From contig CAIIXF020000005.1 of NCBI GenBank assembly GCA_903813345.2, positions 17,551,375 to 17,615,374 of the forward strand: 64,000 nucleotides of DNA, written 5' to 3'. A program made the translations under genes and the position numbers. Within the stretch, counting starts at the first letter, position 1. The number at the start of each line of letters is the position of its first letter. Positions 38,301 to 54,593 of the stretch are shown here, piece after piece. Source of the DNA: Owenia fusiformis (Eukaryota; Annelida; Polychaeta; Sabellida; Oweniidae). The notes below the pieces were generated by a model. The model ran no database searches and was not told the DNA's origin. It worked only from the letters and a program-made list of their open reading frames with translations.

Positions 38301-41300
38301 TGTATTGATCTCCCTAGGATTTGTTCTCAGCAGTGGTCAGGTCAGAATATCTCAATATTAATCAGTAGAATGTTACTTTTCTTCATTTTGTCATTGTGGC
38401 CAAATAATCTGTGATTATCACTCTATTTTTGTTACATCAGCTTTGGTGCCTGACTTTTACATAATGACACCTTTCGCAATTGACAACAACATGTGTGCTA
38501 ACAATTCCATAAGAGTTGTCTAAGAACCTGACTAATTAAGGAAAACAACTAAGAAGGCAGTTTGACTATTTTTATTGCTGTCTCCTCTCCCAATGGCCAT
38601 TGTTAGAATTCAGATAAAAGATAGGAAGTGATGATCATGACAAATGTGACATTCATGATTACTGTCCCTCTGTTGTTCACAATAAGCGTGCAGGCCCAAA
38701 GTCTTTCAAATCGTGCAGTTTTTGAGCATCTTTGAGTGATTTAGGGCCAGAATTTTTAAAGAACTCCCTGGAATTTTTATTTATAATTATACCCTCTCCA
38801 CTGGCGGATTAGGGCCCAGAAAAAAAAAATTGGACCAAAAAAAAATTTGGGCCAAAAAAGGCCTGAAGGCCCCAAAAAGTGGGCCTTTTTGGTAATAACT
38901 GGGCCTTTTAAGGCCTTGTTCTTAATTCAAGGCCAAATTTTGAAGAAAATGGGCCTCAAAATTTCAAATTTTTTTTCTCTGACCTGAAATTTGGGCCCCC
39001 CCCCCCCTTGTTCGTTCCCAGATCCGCCCCTGCTCTCCCCTTAGCAAAAACTGGCTACAGGGCATGCGCATCCTCCGATCACAGGGCTTCAAAATCCAGA
39101 ATATCTTCTTTCTTTTTACAACCTGCTATAAGCAGTTAGCATTTCCCCGATTAAGAACTCGCAATCTGATTGGCTGTCGCAACACTGCGACAGAAATCAT
39201 AATTAGATCACGTGATTCAGTTTAATCGGGCGCTTCCAAATTGGTTATAGCAGGGGGAAGAAGGAGGTACGGATTCTGGATACCTGCTTAGGAGGATGGG
39301 CATGCGTAGTTATAAATAATTCATCAGTTCGACTGATTTGTCAGATGAGTGATAAAACCTCAAGAAAGGCATTGAACCGTGGCATGATTCTCTCCAAAAA
39401 GAAACACTTTTCATAGCTATTAGCTATGACAAAATGGCCCATGAAAGACAAAAAGTACGATCTCAATTCAGAAATGTGATTCTTACAATTCCCATTCCCA
39501 AGTATGCCCATCTCCAATTATTCAAGTGATTTCCCTCATGTTGAGATATAAACTAGCCAATCATAGAGAAGTGATTTATGTAATCATCATTACACCATTC
39601 AATTCATTTCAATCCTAGTTGGGTTGATGGTTTACTTGAGAATCGTTATATAATATGGTTTTCTCGTCTCTCTATTGATTTATTAGCCTACAGTTTATAA
39701 TTTTGAAGTCTGCAACACATTTTGCCCTTTAGACTTTCGTTAAATCATATACAGTAAAACCTGTATATCAGAACAATTCTCTAATCCAAACATCTCTCAC
39801 TGCGAACACTATTTCTCAGTCCGAATTGCTTTCTCTCATTGACTCCTATATTAATAAACTTTGAATAAGAAACACCTATTATCCAAACAACTTGTCCCAC
39901 TCCCAGTGGAGTTTGGATTTAGACATGTTCTACTGTATTGTTTTGCAAGGCAGATATTATTTCTTACATTTCTGAAATTGATATAATGACACTTTCCCCT
40001 TAGAGCTAGGTAATATATAAGTGCCTATACTTAGCACAATTCTTGATACTCCATATCAAGCAAGACGTTTTCCCCAGGACGTTTTCGTGTATGATGCTAA
40101 CACTGCTGATTTAATTTTTGAAAGATGATATTGCTGTAATAGGTTTCAGTGACATTTAACATTTTCTTGAACTAGATGTTCCTCGAGAAAAGTACATTTT
40201 CTGACATCAGGAAAATCTGAGAAATTAATAAACCCAAGAAGAAATTATTATTAGAAATGCCTCATATTGTGACTCATGTTAAGCTAGCATATACAGTGTA
40301 CTGTGGAATCTTATATGGGAATAAAAATGAAGTAGGACTTGTCATTCTGGCATTCGCGATGTAACAAACATGAATGCAGTACAATTAGTGTAAGAATTCT
40401 TATAAGGAAACGTCGATTTTTAAAATGCTTTTGATTGAGGGAATATAAGTATCACATAGTTTTATGATTTTATCTAATGCTGATAGGAAATAATGTTGCA
40501 GGTCTAGATGATTGGGACATTGTCGCACCAGGGGACATCGGAACAAATAGGCTATCACAGCTGGTAGAGAAGTCATCACTCCTTGGATCTATTACAGCCT
40601 CTGTCTCTAGTCAGATGGGAAAGACTGTCTCAACTGTACAACAAGCTCTGGGTATGTAGATGTGCTTTTCTTATTAAGTCCTCAATTATCTAGTATGACC
40701 TTAAGGTTTAGTATCATTGGTTATAATGACATTACCACAACGGATTGTGTTTGGCGGTTCGCAGTCGATGTCTGTAACAAATGGCAGGTAGTGGCGTTTT
40801 GCATATTAATGCCTTGTTATTAATTTTTCAATAGAATAGAAAAGGATGTTTGATCTAATTTTAAATTTATTTAACAATTGTCATAATATTTACTCAATAA
40901 TCTTTTTTTAGGTATGAAAGTTGAACCTAGTGAAGTGATGAAGCCTCTTAAGCTACCAATGACAGATGCTGAATTCCACAACTTTATGGATGCTGTAGGA
41001 CATCTTGTTCAGCCCCAAGCTTTTCGTTTAAGTGTCTACCAGGGTGGGGTCGAGCCATCACTTCGTAAAGTTGTCTGGCGCCATCTATTGAATATATACC
41101 CCGAAGGTATGAATGGACGTGAAAGATTTGACTATCTGAAATCAAAATCGCAGGAGTATTTTAGATTACGGGATGAATGGCACAAAAAGCTCCAGTCCAG
41201 TGAGCAAAGTGAAGAGATGAGATTTGTGACGTCAATGGTGAAAAAAGACGTGCTTAGAACTGATAGGACGCATAAATTCTATGCTGGTTCTGATGAAAAT

Positions 41301-43097
41301 AAGAACATTGTATCCTTATTCAACATACTAGTCACTTATGCCATGACACATCCAGACGTATCCTATTGCCAAGGAATGAGCGATATTGCATCTCCGATTC
41401 TGGTCATACAGAAAGATGAAGCCCATGCTTACATCTGCTTTTGCGGGATTATGAAACGTGTGAAAACAAATTTTATGTTAGATGGACATGTGATGAGTAT
41501 CAAGTTCCAGCATTTATCACTTCTTCTACAGCACAATGACCCAGAGTTCTTTGCGTATCTTCAACAGCAGGATGCTTCTGATATGTTTTTCTGCTATCGA
41601 TGGCTTCTCTTAGAAATGAAGCGTGAATTTCCATTCGATGATGCTCTTCACATGTTAGAGGTCATGTGGAGCTCTTTGCCACCTGATTTACCCGCCAGCA
41701 GCGGCCTTGAACTATCTGACCCCAACTACAATATTATCCAATATTCTATGTCACCATCTTCCCCGACACCTACAAACAAAACAAGCGCCTATGAGAGACT
41801 CCGTTCTCTTAAGAGGGGATACAGTCCAAAAACAAAAGACATTAGCCCTAAACCGCGAGTTGTTCAAAGTGGTACAAAGTCTTTAACAACTGTTGGCTTC
41901 AAGGTCAACAGTAATACAGGAAAAGATGGGAAAAATTCAATGAATGATACAATAACACCATTGGAAGAAGAGAAACTTCTTGTCGATGCAAAAGACTTTG
42001 AATCTATCGAGGACTCAGTTACTCAGTCATTATCAGAAAAATCATCAAGTATAGATCGTTCATTTGGAAGTGATGGGACCTATTCAGAAAACATGAAACC
42101 CTCATTGGAGAGCATTCACAAAATTGAAGAGGACATTACCACAATTGAAGAGGACATTCCAACAATGGAAGAGGACATTCCTGCTATTGAAGAGGACACA
42201 AACAGGGGTGAGGAAGGCAATCAAAACAGTAATGCAGTAGAAAATTCCATAACTGTAAATGCTGGAAAATTAGATGGTGCTGTTCAAAAGAGACTCGCAG
42301 AGAGTCAGAAACAAGACTATGATAAGAAAGCTACACAAATTTTCAATGAACTCAAGCATAATCCAAATGGACCAAGGCAAAATTGTGTTGGAACTACACA
42401 AAAGCGTGATGAAATTACTCAAAATTCCAAACCTGAAAGGCATTCTGAATTTTATGTATCTCTAGATGAGGACTCCAGTGGTCCATTGGATAATGAACGA
42501 ATACGTCATTGCAGTAAAGTAAGTGATTCCAGCAGTGGAACAGGCCAGTCCCATTTTTATGTCTCCTTGGACTCCACGGGTGATCACGCAACTGGATCTT
42601 CAACTAAGCGTCCAAATGATATTCCAATTATAAATGTTCACCAAACAGAAGATGATTTCAGTGGAAATTCCACAGAGTCCACCATTCGTCATGGTAATAC
42701 TGAGGTCCATACAGATTCTGGGTACACTGACAGTTCTTGTGAAGTTGCTGCATCAGATTCGGCGACAAATTCCAGTGATATCGCCCAGGATTCACTCTCA
42801 ATGGAATATACAAAATTTACGCAAGAATTACCACCATTGCCAGCCCCAGATGAATTCGGCCAGGGCAACCCCTTTCTGATTTTCCTCTGCCTGACACTCC
42901 TGCTCCAGCATAGGGACCATATCATCCACAACGATATGGATTATAATGATCTTGCCATGCATTTTGATAAGATGGTGCGTAAACATAACATGCCAAGAGT
43001 GTTAAGACAAGCTCAGTCTCTATATGCTGCATATTTGCAGTCACAGGCAAGGCTTGCTGCTGAGAACAGAGAAAGCACAGAATATGGGAGTATCTAG
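29304..43097 (+). CDS. TBC1D25: TBC1D25/OATL1-like Rab GTPase-activating protein (5 exons)
   Basis: Human TBC1D25 is a Rab GAP recruited to autophagosomes by Atg8/LC3. Coding exons are 29304-29357, 30755-30864, 37545-37693, 40502-40651 and 40912-43097. All have GT-AG junctions with compatible phases, and together encode 882 residues. The ATG follows an in-frame TAG 12 bp upstream. Residues 1-104 match the N-terminal PB1-like region (VDPQITSFEVL; DWDLDAAF). DWDIV with Trp109 corresponds to the human LIR. The TBC domain is about 200-415, with the arginine finger in KKDVLRTDR (Arg270) and the glutamine finger in YCQGMSD (Gln308). The family's C-terminal block begins GQGNPFLIFLCL and runs to about residue 866. 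A Ser-rich insert of about 370 residues, including 7-residue IEEDI repeats, makes it longer than the 688-residue human protein. Catalytic residues are intact, so it should be active. Confidence 0.95.
29632..30010. mobile_element. Fold-back element in TBC1D25 intron 1
   Basis: The left arm starts AGTCCATTTCACTGCTTCAG (29632 on) and is matched in inverse by the right arm ending CTGAAGCAGTGAAATGGACT at 30010. The stems are about 110 bp and almost identical. The central 150 bp are unpaired. High arm identity suggests recent insertion or conversion between arms. Confidence 0.9.
31046..31190 (+). repeat. ATGTCACCAC dispersed repeat, copy A
   Basis: Starts ATGTCACCACCAGAAGTG and contains GTGGATGGTGTTTGGTG. 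It ends around TGTAACAAATGACAGGTGG, then TGACATTTTGC. Four relatives lie at 32391, 35041, 40731 and 58479, all in the same orientation. This is a short non-coding family; its class is unknown to me. Confidence 0.8.
32201..32278. repeat. Perfect 33-bp inverted repeat (hairpin) in TBC1D25 intron 2
   Basis: The arms 32201-32233 and 32246-32278 are exact reverse complements (TACAAAGTTG...GAGATAT) around a 12-base T/A loop. In RNA it would form a 33-bp perfect stem. It may be a minimal MITE or a palindromic duplication. Confidence 0.95.
32391..32513 (+). repeat. ATGTCACCAC dispersed repeat, copy B
   Basis: Shares ATGTCACCAC at the left, TTTGGCATTTGTAACAAATG in the middle, and GGTGGTGATATTTTGCATG, then TTAATGCC at the right with copy A. 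The interior is diverged. Confidence 0.75.
32818..32943 (+). repeat. 21-bp minisatellite, six units
   Basis: Six head-to-tail units of CCCATTGATATAATATCTCA plus A; the inner ones are nearly identical and the outer ones carry substitutions. The 21-bp period keeps a frame open in intron 2, which would read as repeats of PIDIISQ, but no splice sites or conservation support coding. Confidence 0.95.
33226..33380. mobile_element. pogo/Tigger-like MITE, right end missing
   Basis: TA then CAGTAAAACCTGTCCCTG marks the left end. The interior (AAGTGTTCA, TTTCAAGGTTTTTAACAT) matches the element at 63011-63398. No matching right terminus was found, so the right boundary is approximate and the copy is probably truncated. 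Confidence 0.6.
33804..34574 (+). mobile_element. Helitron/pearl-like non-autonomous element with CCGT microsatellite
   Basis: It starts TCCCATCGAACGAAGTTCGG after an A and ends in CTGG before a T. This fits the Helitron rule of 5' TC, 3' CTRR and insertion between A and T. A 5' subterminal hairpin (CGAAC-GAA-GTTCG) and a 3' hairpin (TACGC-TTT-GGCGT) are present, as is a short inverted repeat (CCCATCGAAC/GTTCGATGGG). Inside is a CCGT tract (about 33841-33903) followed by about 135-bp repeats sharing AAGTAGTGAAGCGATTTTGT. This matches the layout of pearl/CvA-type elements described in bivalves. No Rep/helicase gene is present. Confidence 0.75.
35041..35150 (+). repeat. ATGTCACCAC dispersed repeat, copy C
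   Basis: A diverged copy: TTACCACCAG at the left, GTATGGTGGTTGCTGTTTGG, CATCTGTAACAAATAGCAGG, and a right part ending AAATGCCTTGTT. Confidence 0.65.
36180..37290. mobile_element. Nested fold-back element, about 1.1 kb
   Basis: Three inverted-repeat levels are stacked. The outer ends GGGTTGGGAT and ATCCCAACCC carry flanking matches (GATTTGTCTACTATGGTGG / CCACCATAGTGGACAAATC). A middle pair of about 100-bp arms (about 36250-36350 and 36737-36836) shares CCTGTGGGAAATATTGGGTG. The third level, inside the middle pair, is a perfect 30-bp hairpin (36392-36421 with 36437-36466). The motif ATATTGGGTGCGG occurs in both the middle arms and the inner hairpin, which suggests repeated self-insertion or template switching. 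No open frame encodes a transposase. Confidence 0.85.
37770..37945. mobile_element. pogo/Tigger-like MITE in TBC1D25 intron 3
   Basis: The left end AAGTAGAACCTGTTAAATGG (first base changed from the family's C) and right end TTACACAGGTCTTACTG are bordered by TA on both sides. The interior carries repeats of GTGGAACACCTC and its inverse. It lies 76 bp downstream of exon 3. Confidence 0.75.
38799..39032. mobile_element. hAT-like MITE
   Basis: The left terminus CACTGGCGGATTAGGG and right terminus GATCCGCCCCTG are imperfect inverse copies of a CAGGGGCGGATC-type end, common in hAT elements. The interior is rich in GGGCCTTTT, TTGGGCC and a poly-C run. The flanks are similar CT-rich octamers but not identical, so the target-site duplication is uncertain. 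Confidence 0.65.
39752..39935. mobile_element. pogo/Tigger-like MITE in TBC1D25 intron 3
   Basis: Begins CAGTAAAACCTGTATATC and ends GACATGTTCTACTG, with TA on each side (39750-39751, 39936-39937). The interior has AATCCAAACA and its inverse GTTTGGATTT. 184 bp, non-coding. Confidence 0.8.
40731..40818 (+). repeat. ATGTCACCAC dispersed repeat, copy D
   Basis: A short copy inside the 260-bp intron 4: ATTACCACAACGG, GTGTTTGGCGG, ATGTCTGTAACAAATGGCAG and GCATATTAATGCCTTG. It occupies about a third of that intron. Confidence 0.65.
42123..42200 (+). repeat. In-frame 21-bp coding repeat in TBC1D25 exon 5
   Basis: Almost four units of ATTGAAGAGGACATTCCAAC plus A encode IEEDIPT/IEEDITT-type heptads at residues 559-584. 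The repeat is acidic and lies in the linker between the TBC domain and the C-terminal block. Units differ at the DNA level, so the array has been retained for some time. Confidence 0.9.
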
Positions 43098-45755
43098 AAA
43101 TTGATCAAAATGCTTAAACTCGATGCGATATCAAGGTAGTCACATTTTCCCTTGATATATGGGCTCGATTGGACAAAAAAGCAAAATGCAATGGGTTGGA
43201 CAATTCATTTAACTATTCCATTGGATAAATTAACTATTCCATTGGCCTATTTAACTGTTCCATTAGTTACGTAATGGATAATTTAACTCTTCCATTGGCT
43301 GATTTAACACTGTAAACTTCATTAATTACTCAGATCTGAGTAGGTAGTTACCAGTTTAGCCACCAGGTGGCTAATTCGGGGAAAATAACATGGCAGGGTA
43401 TTACAAAGTTCCCTTAAACTTAAATATTCATCAGTTTTAGTGGTTCACTTTTCATATTACCCTTATGTATCTGATAGTTATACAAATTAAAATATGTCCA
43501 GTAAAAGAAAATATTATCTGCCCAACAGAAGAAAATATATTACACTTTTTGTGATTTTACAACATGGGGTCTATGGGGAATCTCCCCGACCTTTTCGAAG
43601 AAAATTAGATTTTCAAAGTTGATAAACTCCTTGAAACCACATTTCTAGATGCAATTTTAAATGTAGATTCCAAATATGACAACAGTTTGACTGAAAGATT
43701 TAATGACGTAAATCAAGATTATTATTTCATTGGAGGTTTTAACTATTCCATTAGATGAGACAATATTCCACTGGACAATTTTATTGTAGTATTTTGTGGT
43801 ATCCACAAATTGAACATTATACATGAACAAGGACCATTCAAGCAATGCAACATTAGTTGAATGTAAATTTGCCCATGTGATGTCATGTTACCTTAGCAAC
43901 CATAACTATGACAGTGTTCCATAATTCCCAATCCTAGTCTAAATAGTAATACATGAATTTATTGTGGGATTGTTGAACATAATTGGTGCAGAATTGACAA
44001 AATAGCAGCACTAGTCCTCTTATCCTCTTACTTTTGGGACACCTTGTATTCATTAAGATGACAGCATGTAATAAAGTAGTGCTGGGTAAGGACATAGGCA
44101 TACTGTAAAAAGGTTATCTAAATATGCAGCTCAAAAAATAAGTAATCTTGTATTTACTGTAGATACATATACTACCTGTAGGTATGGTTTGAGAAAATAA
44201 TTAAAGAAAGTAGAAGGGATATGCCTAGGTATCTACTAAGTTCAAAAGTTGGTACTAAATTTCTGGATAATTCTTTGAATTTTTGGGTTATCTTGTTTGC
44301 TTTTTGAAAGCATTTTACAATCTCTTTTCCTTCTAATTCCTTCAATGGTTAAAATCAGTTGTCCATATATGTTCCAATTTTACTGACTAAACATAAAGGA
44401 GATGCGTACAAAACTTCGGAAAATGGGAATGCCCATTATTTGGAGATCTGCAAATCAAAAGTATTTTACAGTAGACCAAAAATATTGTATCATTTTTCTG
44501 ATTCATGCTTCGGAAATCCAGAGTAGCTGCCTAATGCAGAAATTTTCATTAATTTCGAGATCTCTTAATGAAATCAATTTGTGTCTAAAAATCCAAAATG
44601 GCATTCCAGATGCTTGTATCAAGAATTCTTAGAACTTCGATATACCCTTTATGTGTGAATCAAAGATATTTCAGTGTACAAATATTCTATTGTGACTTTC
44701 AGAATCATGAAAATTCAGCTTTAGAAATATTTTGTAAGTCATTTGGTATTTGCTTCTCCATGGCATTGCCATTTTCTAGTTCAGCATAAGCAGTATCTGT
44801 TATTTTAGCTTAACCATAGGTGACTGGTTGTTATGATGTTCTGTCAGCTTTAAGACATTGTGATGTAATAAATGCTTAATATGTATACACAAAGAGCACA
44901 TCACATTATAGAGACATTCGATTATCTATGTACATGTATGTATATATATGTAGTATATAGGTGACCAGACAATGGTGCTTCACTATATACATATCCTACA
45001 CTTAATTGTAATTCTGCAAATACTCTACTGGTGCTGGTGTACATTGTACAATGTGTTAAATTAATTGTAATGCAGGTTCTGTCTTCAGACTGAGCCCCTC
45101 AGACACATTTTCTCTACGGGGAGCTAACTTCAAGAAATCTATATATAGAAAATCTACCATGATTTATTCCTATATTTTATGCTGCATATTTCTCTCGATT
45201 TTGGGAGGCTACAGTCACCATATGGTTGCGATCGTAGATCAAATGTGACTGAGGCATTAGCCACATTAGTATCAAGATAAGAATTTCAATTTTCAAGAAA
45301 TTAAATTTCATATTTAATAACTTAACAACTTTCCATTTACATTGTATCAAGAACTAGGCTTCCAGATCTAGTGTACAGTAAAACCTGCTCAATTAAGCAC
45401 ACTTCCATGTTGGGAATTCTAAATAATAGTTTTTGAAAGAATTAACGCCATTGACATCACCCATCTACTAGGACCAATTTTGACTAGTGTGAAGTGAGTT
45501 CCATGTACACAGGTTTTACTGTATTAAAGCATTGGTATCGATATGTTGAACTTTTTGAAGACACATTTCTCTTAAACCAGTCATCAAAAAATTCTAAAAA
45601 TTGTACACGTCGTCAATTTAATTATCATCTTTTGAGTGGTAACAATATAATTTGAAAAAAATATATACTTTTCCCTATATTGTTTCAGAAAACACATCAG
45701 GCACTTCTTTTGTTTGTTCTTGGTAATATGTGTTCTGAATGAAATTCTTTCCGAA
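43098..45755 (+). other. TBC1D25 3' flank / probable 3'UTR
   Basis: No new gene is seen. Degenerate repeats of TTTAACTATTCCATTGG recur about five times at 43187-43310 and again near 43738-43780. AATAAA at 44867-44872 is a possible poly(A) signal; another lies at 47355-47360. A pogo-like MITE lies at 45376-45521. Confidence 0.5.
45376..45521. mobile_element. pogo/Tigger-like MITE, complete with TA target sites
   Basis: CAGTAAAACCTGCTCAATTA at the left and CACAGGTTTTACTG at the right are perfect over the first 12 bp. TA occurs at 45374-45375 and 45522-45523. 146 bp, non-coding. This is the cleanest copy of the family in the window. Confidence 0.9.
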
Positions 45756-45759
45756 CCTC

Positions 45760-46193
45760 ATTGGAACAAAACAACACAAACACAACTTGTTTATACTATA
45801 GGTCTCTCAATATTGTAATTGTACTGTAAAATTTTGGTTGATTTTAAAAAAGTATCTTGTTAATGACATAAAAGGTTTATCTTAATTTTTATCTATTTTG
45901 GGAGGTTTTGTTTTAATTTTTTGAATACTTTTCTTAAATCAACCCAAATTTCCTTTGTATAACTATAATATTGAGAGGTCTGAGAAAATGTTGTATATGC
46001 TATTTTGTTCCAACAAGGTTCGAAAAAACATTTTATTTCATTCTCAAGAATTGGTAGAAAGAAACAAAAAACTAAAAAACAAAAAATGTTAATAAAAACA
46101 GTTATACAAAACATATATAAATAATTTTCACATTAAATTGTTGTTAATCAGTCAACATTACAAAAAGGACTGTTTTTTTACAGATTGTTTTCA
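45760..46193. repeat. 430-bp direct repeat, copy 1
   Basis: From ATTGGAACAAAACAACAC to the bases TTGTTTTCA at 46193. Copy 2 (46299-46727) is identical except for a 5-bp deletion and what I read as one substitution. Exactly 105 bp separate the copies, and that spacer is a TBC1D25 exon fragment. Confidence 0.95.
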
Positions 46194-46298
46194 CTACACA
46201 AAAGTGTGATGAAATTATTCAAAATTCCAAACCTGAAAGGCATTCTGAGTTTTATGTATCTCTAGATGAGGACTCCAGTGGTCCATCGGATAATGAAC
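46194..46298 (+). pseudogene. 105-bp copy of TBC1D25 exon 5 between direct repeats
   Basis: The segment matches 42394-42498 over its full 105 bp with four substitutions (by eye). It begins CTACACAAAAGTGTGATG and ends GGATAATGAAC. The source encodes residues of the Ser-rich linker. The fragment fills the whole gap between two near-identical 430-bp direct repeats. It has no splice sites and is not a functional exon; it is a template-switch, transduction or gene-conversion product. Confidence 0.9.
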
Positions 46299-46727
46299 AT
46301 TGGAACAAAACAACACAAACACAACTTGTTTATAGGTCTCTCAATATTGTAATTGTACTGTAAAATTTTGGTTGATTTTAAAAAAGTATCTTGTTAATGA
46401 CATAAAAGGTTTATCTTAATTTTTATCTATTTTGGGAGGTTTTGTTTTAATTTTTTGAATACTTTTCTTAAATCAACCCAAATTTCCTTTGTATAACTAT
46501 AATATTGAGAGGTCTGAGAAAATGTTGTATATGCTATTTTGTTCCAACAAGGTTCGAAAAAACATTTTATTTCATTCTCAAGAATTGGTAGAAAGAAACA
46601 AAAAACTAAAAAACAAAAAATGTTAATAAAAACAGTTATACAAAATATATATAAATAATTTTCACATTAAATTGTTGTTAATCAGTCAACATTACAAAAA
46701 GGACTGTTTTTTTACAGATTGTTTTCA
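46299..46727. repeat. 430-bp direct repeat, copy 2
   Basis: The second copy of 45760-46193, five bases shorter (the first TATACTATAGG reads TATAGG). Near-identity implies the duplication is young compared with the surrounding MITEs. Confidence 0.95.
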
Positions 46728-49700
46728 ATAATTGTTTTAAGAGAAAAACATTGTTTAATTCAGTTCACCATATTGATACCTATCCTTTGCATGGTATTCT
46801 CTCTTTGATCTCAAAATGTTCATCCATGACCAACCCAATGTAAAATCTGCTGCAGGGTTCAGTGCTTTCCTAGAGGTATCGTGCTTATTTGAAGACATAG
46901 TGTTGCTCCAAAGCAACCCTGCGGCAGAGAAAAAAACTACCTGAAGACGAATCTCTCTTAGAAGTGATGTCGGACAAATGCAAAGGGTCTATGATGAATC
47001 AGATCCACACATCCTGAATGCATTTACCATTGGTCACACAGATACTTTGGAAGTGCATGTAAACTGACATTTACATGTAAGCCCCGATGCACATTCTATT
47101 TCATTGAAATTATTATTCTGGGTTTCACTTTTGGTACAATCGAAACTTACGATTCCAAGAAAATCATAGTCTTAAATGATGAACAATGACTGAACCAAAA
47201 TTGGAAGTAATGATGGTTCCAAAAATGGATCTCTGTATATTGTCTTGGTCTATTATTCATTAAGGCATTGAGAAAAATGCAAGAAAGCACAGATATACTA
47301 GAAAATAAATGCTCTCTTAGCAAATTATGTACAAGAAAATCATCTTATTTGTGCAATAAACTTAGTTTTATGGACTTAACACTGTGTTGTAAGCTATTTA
47401 TCTGAAGACAAAGTTTAAATGACTAATTAAGCGTACTCCATTTCATAAACTGCTATAACTGATTGTGTGGACAACAGTGCTGCAAAGGGAAAGATGAACA
47501 AACTTCAATCAGAAGATGACTCGTAAAGAACGATACTGTAGATACACTTATTTTGACGCTACTTTATTCGACGAATTTCAAATATTGGCGGCTATTTAAT
47601 TTGGTGGATTCAGGACTGAAGTTTAATTTTTGTCTATGTTTAGATAACAGGAAAGTTAAGTATTAATACACACCTCATTGGCTTGTGGTATAAACCAAAA
47701 CAACCCAATAAGGTGTGTATTAATGATTAACTTTCCTGTTATCTCAAAATCTGCTTGGAACTATACCATTGGATTACTATGGGAAATTCCTCTAAGAGAA
47801 ATTTTTGGGATTAAGGAAGGGGTACCATTTACACAAATTGAGAAATTATTGGCATTCATGAAACCTATTTAAAACAGCATTTATATTATTCAAAAGCATT
47901 CGTAATAATGATTTCCAGTCCTCTGAAGTTTGAAAAATAACAATACCTGGGTGTTAATCCATAGATAATCCTTGAAAATGAGAAATATTTTTTTAGGATT
48001 ATGGTATGTATATGGTGCATAGTCAATAAAATGTTTTAATGTGTATTGATGTTCTATAGATGAAAAACACAAGGGAAATGCATAAAAAAGCTCCCCGGAT
48101 TTTTATCCAATCCGTCAAATTAAAAATGGGAGCCAAATTAAGTGTATCTACTGTATCCCATTTTATTTCGAAATGGTGAGTTATTTCACCAAGGATCTTT
48201 TCTCCACACCAAATCATAAAATAAATTCCTTCAATATATTTATCTGTTGGGAGATTCCTCAGTGAGATCTCTATAATGACCTGCCATTTAATTGAAACAT
48301 AGATCACATTTAGTATAAATTATTATTTTATTAATAAAATCCTGTGGCAATTTGTATATATACAGTTGAATAAATGCAACAAAAATGTGCATTTCAAAAA
48401 CCACTCCAAACACACTAAGGTAGGCCTAGAGGGTGGAAATACAAGTAAATTAATGAAGGTATTGGTTAGATTACTCTTTGCACTCTATCTACCTTAATGC
48501 CATATAAGGTGTGGGAGATACTGGCATTTTGGCCAAGTTCCTCATACATACAACTTAGTGAATCAAAGCGAATCTCACATAATAAATGTACATGCATGTA
48601 CAGTACAGTGATATTCTTTCAAGATGTGTATGAATGGCTGAATTTGTTTTAAAACACTTGCTTCATACAGTTATACTTCATGTCTGACTTGACTCCATGT
48701 CACTGTACATTGTACTTTTACATACATTTTAATACAATCAGGTATTTATGCTCATATCAATGGTTTACTTTAATACCTTAATACAGCAATAGACTACATG
48801 GGTATACAATCAGTGATCTCCCCAGCACCTAAAAGGAACTAGGTATTGTGCCAGAACTTCCAAATTCACTTGCATAGGACAGAAAATTCACTTGCACCCA
48901 ATAGAATATAAATGACCTCAATCCAATGGAATATACACTTGCACTAAGTTGAGAATTTGGGACATACTTTATAGCAAACAATGAATTTTAACAATTTTCA
49001 GACTAGAATAATAACAAAGAGAATTTTGCACCCAATTAAGAAAGTCTTGAGGAGAAAACTGAATCTCAGACTATAACATAGAAAAATAAATATTAGATAT
49101 TGCAGAGTTGGTTTAAAATATTATATTGCATACATATAATATATTCACTTTTCTTCACATTCATCCATCTGACCACTGATCCAAAAATAGCACCAAGGTT
49201 TCCTATGGTTTTCCATATTAATGGAGGGGAGTGTACATTTATATTTTCTGGTTTAACACTTCAATGCTTGGGACATTTTATTTTAAAGAGCCTAAAGCTG
49301 CAATACTCATCCTTTATAGTTCTGAAATACAGTGTATATCTTAAATTATAATTCAGACTAATATGTTTGCAATCAATAGACTTATTTGTTGAAAATATCA
49401 TTGCTTGAAAAAAGTCTTCACCTATGTTGAATAAGACAAGATCAAATTGATAAAGTATAATTTCACCTTTTTTTAAAATTTACATGTTGTATGAATTACA
49501 AACAAAAAATTTGAATTATTTATGATGAAAATTGCTACAGGTATTAGACCTTTAAAGTGAGCTGCAAAAAAATTCATTTCAAAATCAAATTTATAATTTT
49601 TCATACCTTTGCTGGGGAGTGTACATGCACATAAGTAACACAAAAAGTTCATACTCATATATATAAGGCGTACTGACAACTCATTCACTTATATTCCATA

Positions 49701-50017: not shown

Positions 50018-53000
50018 TTAGGTCACATGATTCATGGTTACACCATTTTTTCCTTTGTTTTTCTTCATTTTTTTGTAAATACCATTAACTGGACCTTCAA
50101 TTTCTTTCCTTTTCTTAGCTTCTCTTACATTATTTTCACAATCAAATGTTTTAGCAGTTGATTCTTTATGTATGGCACCATTTGTATTATTGAGATTGTC
50201 CTTTGTTGGCGTATCATCATCCGCATTTGTAGATTGCTCATCATCAGAAATATCAGTTATAGCCTCAAGATCCATTGTATTATGAGGAGCCTCTTCACAT
50301 ACTGTAACATCTGCATACTCATTAGGTTTTATTGCATTTATACCATTTACTTTTGGTGACACTGTAACATTGCTTTCAGATTCTGATATATCTTTTGTTT
50401 TAATCAGATCTTTGTTTGGCACATTTCTTCGCCTCTTTCGTTTAGGCTTTAGCTTGGATTGCATCGTCAGATCAACTGCACCAGCAGATGTATCGTCTTC
50501 CTGATCCCCATTGTTCAATTCCCTTGTTTGATTATTTTCAGCTTTTGATGAACTACACACATGCCTTATTAATCTAGACTCCAATTTGAATTTCTTCTTA
50601 CAAAGTTCACATTTGTAGTTTTCAAAATGAGATTTCATATGCGTGTTCAATTCTTTACGAGATTTGAAGTCAAGATCACACTCATTACAGCTATACTGAG
50701 GCGCACTTTCTGGATGGACTTTTCTATTATGGGCGTAGAGAACTGTCTTCCTAGTGAACCCCTTAGAACATAACTTACAATTAAACAATTTTGAATTGAC
50801 ACTTTTCTCACCATGAGCTCGCTGGGTATGCTGAGTTAATCCTTGGACAGTCAGAAATGATTCCTCACATAACTCACAAACGATAACCGACTTTTCTGCA
50901 TGCTTCTTCATGTGTGTATTGAGATGTGACCTTTGGGTAAATCGAAAGTCGCATACAGTACAAGGGAAGGGTTTGTTATGGTTTCGCGTATGTACCTTTA
51001 ATTTCGCTTCTGAATGGAACTGCTTTTCACATATATGACAATTGTAAACCTTCCCCTCGTGTTCCTTCATATGGAGCGTCTTACGATCTTTCTGAGCATA
51101 TGTTTTTCCACAAATCTCACATATATAAGGCTTAGTGCCAGTATGCACCCAGGAATGGTCCCGAAGGTGACGACGTTGACCAAACTGCCGTGGACAAAGA
51201 TCACATTTGTATTTCTTTACTCCAGTGTGGGTAGAGACATGCTGTGTCAGCCCACCAATTTGAGTGAATTTTCTCGAGCACACTGGGCAAGTATATTTCT
51301 TGTCTTTATCATCAAGATGAGTCTGTCTATGCTGTACCAAGGTGTCTAAACGTCTAAAACTTCTCCCACATTCTTCACAGCTGAATGGCTTTTCATTAGT
51401 ATGGCACACTTTATGTTTTATCATTGCATGTTTGTAACCGAAAGCTTTCCCGCAGATATCACACTCGAAAGGTCGGGCACCCAGATGCACGGCCCGGATG
51501 TGTTTCTCAAGATTTCCTCGTTGACTAAACATCTTCTGGCAATGTTGGCATTGATTCGATAAATCCTTTGATGGAGGGTTCTTTGGCGTACTTGAACGTG
51601 GCTCTGGGGTTGATGGTGGTGGATGGGGCAGAGGAGGGACAAGAAGGCACGATGGTGGTGGAAGACAAGATTTGACACCATCCTCAGAGGGTTCAGATTT
51701 TGGTGGTGCATGAGTTGCATAAACATATTCTGGAGGGGGAGATTCGATTGTCATTGGCATGTCAGAATTACTAAAATTGCTCAAAGCCTGTCGAATATGT
51801 GGTATCAAACTTGGCTTGTCTTCGAACCCCATAGGATGAACTGTAGTTAAGTTCTCCATTGCCACTGCAGCAAACCCTGAATTATCAATTCTATTTGGGT
51901 GTACAAGGTTTGTTGCAGCCAGCTCTGAATTGTTAATTCTATTTGTTTGTTCAACATTTGTTACGGCCAACACTGAATTGTCAATTCTATTTGGATGTTC
52001 CACATTTGTTGCATTTAGCCCTGAATTGCTTATTCTGTTTGGATGTTCCACATTTGTTGCATCCAGCCCTGAATTGTCAATTCTATTTGGATGTTCCACA
52101 TTTGGTGTGGCCAGCCCTGAATTATCAAGTCCATTGTGTTCAACATGCATATTATGATCAATGAGATTATGTTCAACAGTATGAGCCTGATTGATATTGC
52201 GTTGATCAAGCTCAATCTGCAAGTCTCTGGCTTTGCTAGCCTCAGCTCTCAACTGAGCTTTACGTTTAATGTTAATATACTCTCCATATAGATCATTCTG
52301 GGGTGTCTTAACATGTAGGTGAGTAGTTGGCAAGTTTATATTTGGTTTTGAATTGCTGAGAATTTGTGATTGTTCATGTAAATGAGCAGTTGACACACTG
52401 TTCAAGTTATTCGGTTTTGCATTCAGAATTTGAGATTGTTCATTTTCTAACATAGAGACCACATCAGCTACTGTCTCTGCAATGTTTAACGACTCCTTTG
52501 GTTCGACTACTCCAGTTTTTGTGTCCTCCTGGTCAGAATCAGAGTCACTAGCACCAAAGTCCTGACTAGGTACATTAATAGATTTTGGCGACATAAATGA
52601 ATTTGAAGCATTAATATCGAGTGGCTTTGAGAGTAGATTCTTATCTAATGGAAGAAGTGGGCTGTGCTGAAGAAAATTTGGACTTGGCAGATCATTGAGT
52701 AGACTTCTTGCCAAGTCAGGTTTTTGTTTTAATAATAATTGTACATCCAGGCCCTTCAGTTGTTCGTAAATGTCAAGCTGACCTTGGGGACGTTTCTCTG
52801 AGTAAGGTGCACTCATCAGATCTAGGGATTTAATGTTTGTGTAATAGCCTGAATCTAAACTCATGTTAATTGGTTCATTTCTGCGCTCGTATGTTGAAAT
52901 CAGATCTAAAGCAGTATCAGTAAGTGCATCATTACGTTCTCTTTCTAGTGGGTCATTATGTTGAACATCTGAGTAAAATGTTTGGCCAGGGGAAAATAGA

Positions 53001-53704
53001 TTCCCTGCGAGGATGGGAGGTTCTTGGTGCTTAGAGCTGGTTGGAAGACTGAATACTAAGGGTAAGCCTTGAGTAACATCAGAGCGTTTATCCCCTGTGA
53101 AAACACTATGTGTATCAATGTAATTATGACTGTCAGTTGTAGATTGCTTTGTTGGTCGATCCACTTGAAGCGAGACACTAGAGAGTAGACTCAAAGGGTT
53201 TGGAGCTTCTAAAGTCTGATTACGATCATTATGCATCGTGGAACTGTAGGCGGGGAGTTCAGGGTCACTTCCCTGGAGGCCTCCCATTGCACTTAAGTAT
53301 CCACCATGGTTGGAGCTCCTGCTTGTATAGGTCGGTTGGGGCTCTGTGTGAGGGGTCTGATCTTGCACAGACAGATACTGTTTATAATAGAAATCTTTGA
53401 ACGATATCGGTCTCTCCGTATATGGCTCCTGTATGGAACCTGAGATATATGTATCTGACACAGAGTTGGTTCCATCCGTGTACCCATCATTGAGAGTAGA
53501 GCCACTGCGGTAATCATGACCAAGCCCTTGTGAGAGTAAATCAGCACGCTCAGTGGGGAGATAATGTAAAGGAGTGATCCAGCTAGTGGTTGGAAGACTA
53601 GAGATTCGACCTCGTTCCTGGGTAAAGCTGAGAGATGATATAGAGGGTAATGGTCTAGTATGGGGCGGTTCTTCCTCCTCTGTGGAGACTGCTGGCTCCG
53701 TCAT
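50018..53704 (-). CDS. Twelve-finger C2H2 zinc-finger protein
   Basis: A probable DNA-binding nuclear regulator of 1,228 residues in one uninterrupted coding exon. Residues 1-715 are Ser/Pro/Asn-rich and low in complexity, including five 16-residue repeats (NVEHPNRIDNSGLDAT-like, residues 535-614) and a Pro-rich stretch just before the fingers. Twelve C2H2 fingers run from Cys719 to Cys1050, most joined by TGEKPY-like linkers (TNEKPF, TGVKKY, TGTKPY). The last finger is C2HC (HVC). A basic nuclear-localisation-like cluster, KPKRKRRR, follows, then an acidic tail. The start ATG follows a candidate 3' splice site (TTTCTTGCAG ending at 53743 on the - strand), so an untranslated exon is expected upstream. 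I do not recognise a specific ortholog; single-exon, many-finger genes often belong to lineage-specific families. No KRAB, BTB or PR domain is visible. Confidence 0.9.
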   Translation of the reverse strand: MTEPAVSTEEEEPPHTRPLPSISSLSFTQERGRISSLPTTSWITPLHYLPTERADLLSQGLGHDYRSGSTLNDGYTDGTNSVSDTYISGSIQEPYTERPISFKDFYYKQYLSVQDQTPHTEPQPTYTSRSSNHGGYLSAMGGLQGSDPELPAYSSTMHNDRNQTLEAPNPLSLLSSVSLQVDRPTKQSTTDSHNYIDTHSVFTGDKRSDVTQGLPLVFSLPTSSKHQEPPILAGNLFSPGQTFYSDVQHNDPLERERNDALTDTALDLISTYERRNEPINMSLDSGYYTNIKSLDLMSAPYSEKRPQGQLDIYEQLKGLDVQLLLKQKPDLARSLLNDLPSPNFLQHSPLLPLDKNLLSKPLDINASNSFMSPKSINVPSQDFGASDSDSDQEDTKTGVVEPKESLNIAETVADVVSMLENEQSQILNAKPNNLNSVSTAHLHEQSQILSNSKPNINLPTTHLHVKTPQNDLYGEYINIKRKAQLRAEASKARDLQIELDQRNINQAHTVEHNLIDHNMHVEHNGLDNSGLATPNVEHPNRIDNSGLDATNVEHPNRISNSGLNATNVEHPNRIDNSVLAVTNVEQTNRINNSELAATNLVHPNRIDNSGFAAVAMENLTTVHPMGFEDKPSLIPHIRQALSNFSNSDMPMTIESPPPEYVYATHAPPKSEPSEDGVKSCLPPPSCLLVPPLPHPPPSTPEPRSSTPKNPPSKDLSNQCQHCQKMFSQRGNLEKHIRAVHLGARPFECDICGKAFGYKHAMIKHKVCHTNEKPFSCEECGRSFRRLDTLVQHRQTHLDDKDKKYTCPVCSRKFTQIGGLTQHVSTHTGVKKYKCDLCPRQFGQRRHLRDHSWVHTGTKPYICEICGKTYAQKDRKTLHMKEHEGKVYNCHICEKQFHSEAKLKVHTRNHNKPFPCTVCDFRFTQRSHLNTHMKKHAEKSVIVCELCEESFLTVQGLTQHTQRAHGEKSVNSKLFNCKLCSKGFTRKTVLYAHNRKVHPESAPQYSCNECDLDFKSRKELNTHMKSHFENYKCELCKKKFKLESRLIRHVCSSSKAENNQTRELNNGDQEDDTSAGAVDLTMQSKLKPKRKRRRNVPNKDLIKTKDISESESNVTVSPKVNGINAIKPNEYADVTVCEEAPHNTMDLEAITDISDDEQSTNADDDTPTKDNLNNTNGAIHKESTAKTFDCENNVREAKKRKEIEGPVNGIYKKMKKNKGKNGVTMNHVT
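51863..52102 (-). repeat. 48-bp coding minisatellite in the zinc-finger gene
   Basis: Five in-frame units encode NVEHPNRIDNSGLDAT, NVEHPNRISNSGLNAT and three more diverged copies (residues 535-614), with a partial unit before them. The period is a multiple of three, so unit gain or loss would keep the frame. Confidence 0.9.
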
Positions 53705-54593
53705 GATAACCTCCTGTGTTGTCTAAACTGCAGTAAAATTTCTGCAAGAAAATATAAAACAATTATAGAGAAATACATGTACTAAAGTAATATTTGTTAA
53801 ATTATTCACAGCTTCATTCCTGTCACTATACAAATCTAATGCATCATCAATATCATAATGTTAGGAGAGAAAACACTGAGAAATTAAAAATTGAAAAACA
53901 ATTTCCTACTGTTTGATAATTTGCTTATGACTCATATTTGACAAAACAAGTGATGCGGTAATTGCATAAAATAATACAGGTAGGCTGTCTGGTTCCTGGA
54001 CTATACTCCTGCAAGCATCCGTATCCGTTGTCCGATTACAATATGCGATAATTTGGCATAAACTGTCAAAAATAACATAATTCTGCTGATAAATCCATAC
54101 GATCGACAATTCAACTACATGAAAAGAATCCCAAAAAATTACTAAGGAAGTTATTGTCATATATTATTTTTGTCAGTTTTACGTGCCAAACTCTCCCATA
54201 TTATAATCATAAAGATAACATATGGATGCTTGTAGGACTATAGTCCTTGAACCAGATCACTGGGAGGTACATGACAGTGGATAGACGATCATTCCCATTG
54301 GCTCACATTGTATTCGCATTTGTATCAAAATAAAGAGAAATAAAGAAGAAGTTTTGAACTCTCATTTTGCAATGTTGATCAAAAATATTCCCAAGTATTG
54401 ATTGGGAATGTCTCGTTCCATGTTGGATGATGATACCCCAACATTCTGAATGAATGAAAACATGAAAAGTTGAAAACCTTGAAAATAAAATAAAGGAAGT
54501 CATTATTTGGTAACACTTTCTATCAGCATTTCGCGGTCTACTGGATTCAAAGTAGTGGAAACTTATTAAACTATACATAACCTACATACATAC

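Follow-up and report, generated by a model that had tools for sequence, protein, structure and literature searches.

A host exon fragment at the join of an internal duplication within one inverted-repeat element of Owenia fusiformis

The window, a stretch of 64,000 nucleotides of the Owenia fusiformis genome (contig CAIIXF020000005.1, forward strand), contains an open frame with a RabGAP-TBC domain and, 2.4 kb downstream of it, one copy of a dispersed transposon. About 60% of the length of this copy is doubled internally, and a host-derived filler lies at the join. The features are as follows, with positions counted from the first base of the window.

40887..43097, plus strand: stop-to-stop open frame of 736 codons that includes a RabGAP-TBC domain (domain search, structure matches)
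42393..42498, plus strand: donor of the filler, within the RabGAP-TBC open frame (alignment, genome search, ORF list, domain search)
45527..46787, plus strand: whole element copy, ∼1,261 bp, retaining its terminal inverted repeats on both sides (family alignment, 20 further copies)
45527..45758, plus strand: element left end, single (family alignment)
45759..46193, plus strand: duplicated interior, first copy, 435 bp, reference positions ∼239–678 (pairwise alignment)
46193..46298, plus strand: filler, copy of a RabGAP-TBC exon, its end bases common to the adjoining repeats (alignment, genome search)
46298..46727, plus strand: duplicated interior, second copy, 430 bp (pairwise alignment)
46728..46787, plus strand: element right end, single (family alignment)

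The domain search assigned the RabGAP-TBC domain to the donor's open frame with E = 1.9e-36, and the solved structures that match the frame best are those of TBC1D17 and TBC1D15. In a preliminary description of the locus the donor gene was labelled TBC1D25 and the donor exon its exon 5, labels that are taken here as provisional. The same frame holds 21-bp tandem repeats (42108–42212) that encode EEDI-type repeats. Downstream of the element lies an inverted repeat at 47636–47750, with 51-nt arms that are 88% complementary and spaced 13 nt apart, which is possibly another small hairpin element. Further on, a long open frame on the minus strand (50018–53722) contains 48-bp repeats at 51866–51998 and also zinc-finger-like motifs, read by eye.

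The filler (46193–46298) aligns without gaps with 42393–42498, 102 of 106 positions being identical. Its length is 104–106 bp, depending on how the shared end bases are assigned, and no bases are left over on either side. The preliminary description had placed a 105-bp exon copy (source 42394–42498, four mismatches) between the two repeats with no spare bases, and the alignment confirms this. Filler and donor lie on the same strand, ∼3.7 kb apart. Used as a query, the filler finds the donor with E = 2.7e-42, and within the 498-Mb genome the filler with its joins was found at two places, itself and the donor (N and withheld stretches being invisible to the search). Since the E value is so low and no third place is listed, the match is not due to chance. 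Of 105 sites compared, four distinguish the filler from its donor; all are transitions and three alter an amino acid. The donor begins 1,506 bp from the start of the open frame and ends 599 bp from its end, well away from both. Poly-A or poly-T tracts at the ends of the insert are absent at both joins; a T run ∼15 bp to the left of the first join is element sequence that is present in other copies too. With no poly-A at the joins and a source inside the open frame, the filler is not a retrocopy, in agreement with the preliminary description.

The flanking repeats are nearly identical. Their sole substitution is a C at 46112 against a T at 46646 (1 of 430 aligned columns), and they differ also by one 5-bp indel at ∼45796, which bears out the earlier count of differences. 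Identity is 98.4% over 438 columns when the gap and a few end bases are counted. At the indel spot (45790–45802 in the first copy, 46329–46336 in the second) the repeats read TTTATACTATAGG and TTTATAGG, against TTTAGG in six displayed family copies. Since both are longer there than the family, the spot has changed length more than once.

At each join one base is common to both neighbours, an A on the left and a C on the right. The homology is thus 1 bp on each side, an overlap that chance often gives. Both joins were examined at three widths, each time against 4,000 random pairs, and none of the six tests was unusual (P 0.07–0.68). The motif TTGGAAC, noticed by eye near both templates, was given no evidential weight. 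Because homology is 1 bp at each join and the wider contexts resemble random ones, the joins do not discriminate between repair and replication.

What is repeated is the internal part of a dispersed terminal-inverted-repeat element of ∼720 bp. With the first repeat as query, the genome search gave 2,754 first-look candidates; 40 were scored, and 38 of these lie elsewhere, at 86–88% identity. We retrieved 37 of the 38 other scored copies (20 with 300 bp on each side, 16 more, and one in stretch L030). An alignment of the 20 shows that the family extends well past the repeats on both sides. The element runs from GGTATCGATATGG to its reverse complement, with AAAGG and CCTTT outside these. In 18 of the 20 copies the terminal motifs are 676–736 bp apart, and in the other two (L004 and L016) one end was not found. 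Genome-wide, the exact 19-place terminal motif has 2,603 matches, and its reversed control has none.

The terminal inverted repeats are long. Among 35 terminus pairs, this locus included, the target-site duplication of constant length that would be expected of a cut-and-paste terminal-inverted-repeat element is absent. For duplication lengths of 3–9 no boundary exceeds 4 exact matches in 35, and for a length of 2 the best boundary, set one base beyond the motif at either end, gives 11 of 35. Folded as single-stranded DNA, family copy L012 forms one long hairpin (z = −12.4), with none of 20 shuffled sequences as good. In another stretch (L025:297–836) the same termini enclose a different core of 540 bp, itself with 1,546 first-look genome candidates, and this is perhaps a chimeric subfamily that shares the element ends.

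At the locus the terminal motifs are 1,247 bp apart, and without the duplication and the filler the copy would measure ∼722 bp, the usual family size. The left end and first repeat together span reference positions 2–678 of 739, and the second repeat and right end span 239–739. The element ends are therefore present and lie outside the duplication, so the event took place within one copy. The preliminary description had set the structure apart from transposons, and in this respect it is revised; interrupted transposons are where surveys find such captures (PMC2671141, PMC8277862). It had also named joint dispersal of filler and repeat at many loci as a finding that would speak against it. Counted across the genome, the repeat unit is indeed dispersed, but the filler was found only here and at its donor.

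We then asked how often the family shows such a structure. No direct repeat of at least 60 bp and at least 98% identity was found in 55 other retrieved stretches, a small part of the family when set against 2,603 termini and mostly chosen by similarity (two of them, L013 and L039, overlap), so that rare further cases are possible. Seven of the 55 have a direct repeat of at least 60 bp that is 82–97% alike:

L013: 97% over 70 bp
L033: 96% over 182 bp
L030: 92% over 296 bp
L039: 92% over 308 bp
L048: 90%
L034: 88%
L043: 82%

In L013 and L039 the repeat is due to an adjacent partial copy, and in L033 to two copies 2.7 kb apart. L030 was considered as another internal duplication and rejected, its pieces being only 91.9% alike.

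Eighteen of the stretches were taken from the listed matches to the terminal motif, a part of the 2,603 and all on contig C1, and in six of these the ends are 875–3,700 bp apart. The inserts of L021, L024 and L025 were tried as single-donor captures and rejected, being repetitive (323, 248 and 1,546 first-look candidates, respectively, 40 scored each); because these inserts are genomic repeats, the three are regarded as nested or chimeric repeats. In the remaining three, the reference positions at the breakpoints overlap by 5 in L022 and by 2 in L023, and 5 are missing in L026. These are assumed, rather than proven, to be nested insertions.

The substitutions shared by the two repeats bear on when the event occurred. 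Over 427 sites compared, 12 substitutions are common to both repeats and absent from 43 other copies. The count was 17 with 18 comparison copies and fell to 12 with 43, declining as copies were added; 'private' here means private among 43 copies that were mostly chosen for likeness to the repeat, and an unsampled subfamily could carry some of the 12. In the single-copy ends, private substitutions occupy 9 of 227 sites on the left and 1 of 61 on the right, and the 43 other copies have 0.1–3.0% private sites (mean 1.4%). At the one site where the repeats differ, 42 of the 43 others agree with the second copy and the remaining one with the first. With 12 private substitutions in common and one differing column, the repeats must have been last identical long after the element inserted, as is expected of an event that is not tied to transposition.

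The filler, on the other hand, is more diverged from its donor (4/105) than the repeats are from each other (1/429; Fisher p = 0.006), so this part of the preliminary description holds. If the difference between the repeats is used as a clock, ∼0.25 differences are expected in the filler, and at least four has P = 0.0001, a point estimate that ignores the wide error of the clock itself. A single recent event with faithful copying therefore does not fit, and one of three things must be added: the repeats may have been homogenised by conversion or unequal exchange, the copying may have been error-prone, or a different allele may have served as donor. With the first of these the event could be old, capture and duplication having followed closely upon insertion and the repeats having been kept alike since then. 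The divergence of the filler does resemble the private divergence of the element (12/427, 9/227 and 1/61) rather than that of the repeats. However, there is no direct trace of conversion, and error-prone copying or an allelic donor would explain the same small numbers. We regard later homogenisation as a real prospect, falling a little short of an even chance. It concerns the date of the event and can be combined with any of the mechanisms discussed below, so its probability is not to be added to theirs.

The mechanism that we prefer, with modest confidence, starts with a break in an element prone to form hairpins, which was mended by over-extension of both ends on a sister copy and an exon patch at the join. 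What is observed is the anatomy of the locus, its single donor, the retention of both element ends, joins with almost no homology, and repeats that were still identical at a late date. The hairpin predicted for L012 makes the interior of the element a plausible site of breakage, and the kept ends, the single nearby donor, the one-base joins and the hairpin together suggest a break or stall inside the element. From these we infer that a break occurred, that both of its ends were extended and that polymerase-theta-type end joining sealed it. An old inverted-repeat element would have broken inside its hairpin-forming sequence. With an intact sister or homologous copy as template, the left end would have been lengthened as far as element position ∼678 and the right end extended leftward to ∼239, so that the new strands overlapped by ∼430 bp. 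If these overlapping strands failed to anneal, one end could have primed on the exon 3.7 kb away and copied ∼105 bp, and the patched end would then have been joined to the other with a one-base overlap at each join, giving the order element–filler–element. By analogy with worms, whose templated insertions typically come from sequence flanking the break, the origin of the patch 3.7 kb away would count against such a repair account.

The preliminary description had proposed a replication template switch. By fork stalling or microhomology-mediated break-induced replication, a nascent strand would have stalled at the hairpin, copied 105 bp of the exon and re-entered the element ∼430 bp behind its starting point. 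Templated copying in direct orientation with a return of ∼430 bp is supported by our analysis, the distance being ∼3.7 kb, and a fork would yield the same end-state: the hairpin could stall it, the donor is near and on the same strand, and low-fidelity copying would account for four mismatches that are all transitions. On the other hand, no feature of the sequence requires a fork, and two switches would be needed, the second into the same element, with 1 bp of homology at both joins. The end-state alone does not separate a template switch at a fork from break repair, nor can the sequence do so. We consider the switch possible but rather unlikely, and do not prefer it over break repair.

Repair linked to transposition, in which transposase excises the element and the gap is imperfectly refilled from the sister chromatid, would also keep the outer ends, and capture after excision has been described for P elements (PMC8277862). 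The 12 private substitutions common to the repeats speak against it, since they indicate that the element had long resided at the site. Moreover, after excision one would expect repair to produce larger deletions whose breakpoints lie close to the ends, and no duplication (PMC8277862). This course of events is improbable. An artefact of assembly is more improbable still: the structure is known from the assembled sequence alone, yet a mis-join would not readily create four mismatches in the filler or an indel of 5 bp and a substitution between the repeats. Least probable of all is the hybrid Pack-CACTA route of plants (PMC13317346), in which two neighbouring elements with complementary end deletions enclose host DNA; it would leave the same layout (positions 2–678, host DNA, 239–739), but separate insertions would differ as other copies do (in L030 and L039, pieces that lie side by side show ∼92% identity), whereas the repeats here have 12 private substitutions in common and a single differing column. 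Nor would that route account for the DNA between the repeats, which duplicates an exon that still stands in its original position 3.7 kb away.

Taken with its private markers, the locus records that a dispersed element trapped host coding sequence, apparently by repair and not by transposition. It also shows that a capture can carry a duplication of 430 bp, which scans designed for small gaps or short target duplications might overlook. Being one case, it exemplifies repair behaviour that is already known and does not change it. A broader idea, which we offer as speculation and think unlikely, is that gene-adjacent elements of the inverted-repeat kind serve as traps for repair in this genome, two-ended over-extension at their hairpins producing captures flanked by long, near-perfect duplications of the element that convert one another and can keep, multiply or delete the exon scrap. 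If true, new exon-bearing cassettes could arise in this way, and surveys based on small gaps or short target duplications would not separate them.

Among the closest described systems is the repair-mediated duplication of vertebrate genomes (Pace et al. 2009, PMC2671141). In human DNA that survey found 1,136 transposons interrupted by sequence present at one other place; captures with a donor less than 5 kb away numbered 824 (median 147 bp), and poly-A was present in none of 39 proximal cases inspected. Here, likewise, an insert of more than 50 bp interrupts a transposon and is present at exactly one other genomic place (outside N and withheld stretches, which the search does not see). The donor is also within 5 kb (∼3.7 kb), the ends of the insert carry no poly-A or poly-T, and the length, 105 bp, is similar to that median. 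The breakpoints are different. Signs such as microhomology of 2–9 nt, a deletion of 1–15 nt, filler or a target duplication of 4–21 nt accompanied 51 of the 68 breakpoints inspected there, whereas this locus has 1-bp joins, no extra bases and a duplication of ∼430 bp. Because the form of its breakpoints departs in this way, we regard the locus as a variant and not as a typical repair-mediated duplication.

Single-copy Pack-TIRs are similar in other respects. Tan et al. (2021, PMC8277862) surveyed 100 animal genomes and report 370 host captures in inverted-repeat transposons; among the 281 unique ones, 160 lie within 15 kb of the donor. They consider single-copy captures in animal inverted-repeat elements mostly independent of transposition. 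The locus shares with these a single-copy, non-transposon sequence between the inverted-repeat ends of one element, a nearby donor and, as far as the private substitutions tell, capture after insertion. Breakpoint overlaps there are 1–36 bp; the 1 bp at each join here lies within that range and is not above chance. The distance between the breakpoints, with a median of 4.6% of the element in Pack-TIRs, is negative here, ∼60% of the element being duplicated.

Two further systems have the duplication itself. For worms, Kamp et al. (2021, PMC8654963) trace tandem duplications of ∼100 bp to 10 kb, which occasionally carry templated insertions, to repair intermediates that were extended too far and then end-joined. 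The duplication here falls in the same size range and has a templated insertion at its join. The account given for worms matches the repair mechanism preferred above except for the distant patch: in helq-1 mutants the insertions typically come from sequence flanking the break, and here the patch comes from 3.7 kb away. Galileo of Drosophila willistoni (PMC4168063) is likewise an inverted-repeat element with internally duplicated copies, for which abortive gap repair and template switching have been discussed; in the available text its repeats sit within the terminal repeats and lengthen them, and no host exon at the join of a duplication is mentioned. Across the literature covered on gap repair, Pack-TIRs and templated tandem duplications, drawn in part and mostly from outside subscription journals, the combination seen here is singled out nowhere. 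We conclude that the case is real, well explained as to its kind and ordinary in principle, with a slightly unusual form: the accident belongs to a kind already known, and the long flanking duplication is its unusual part.
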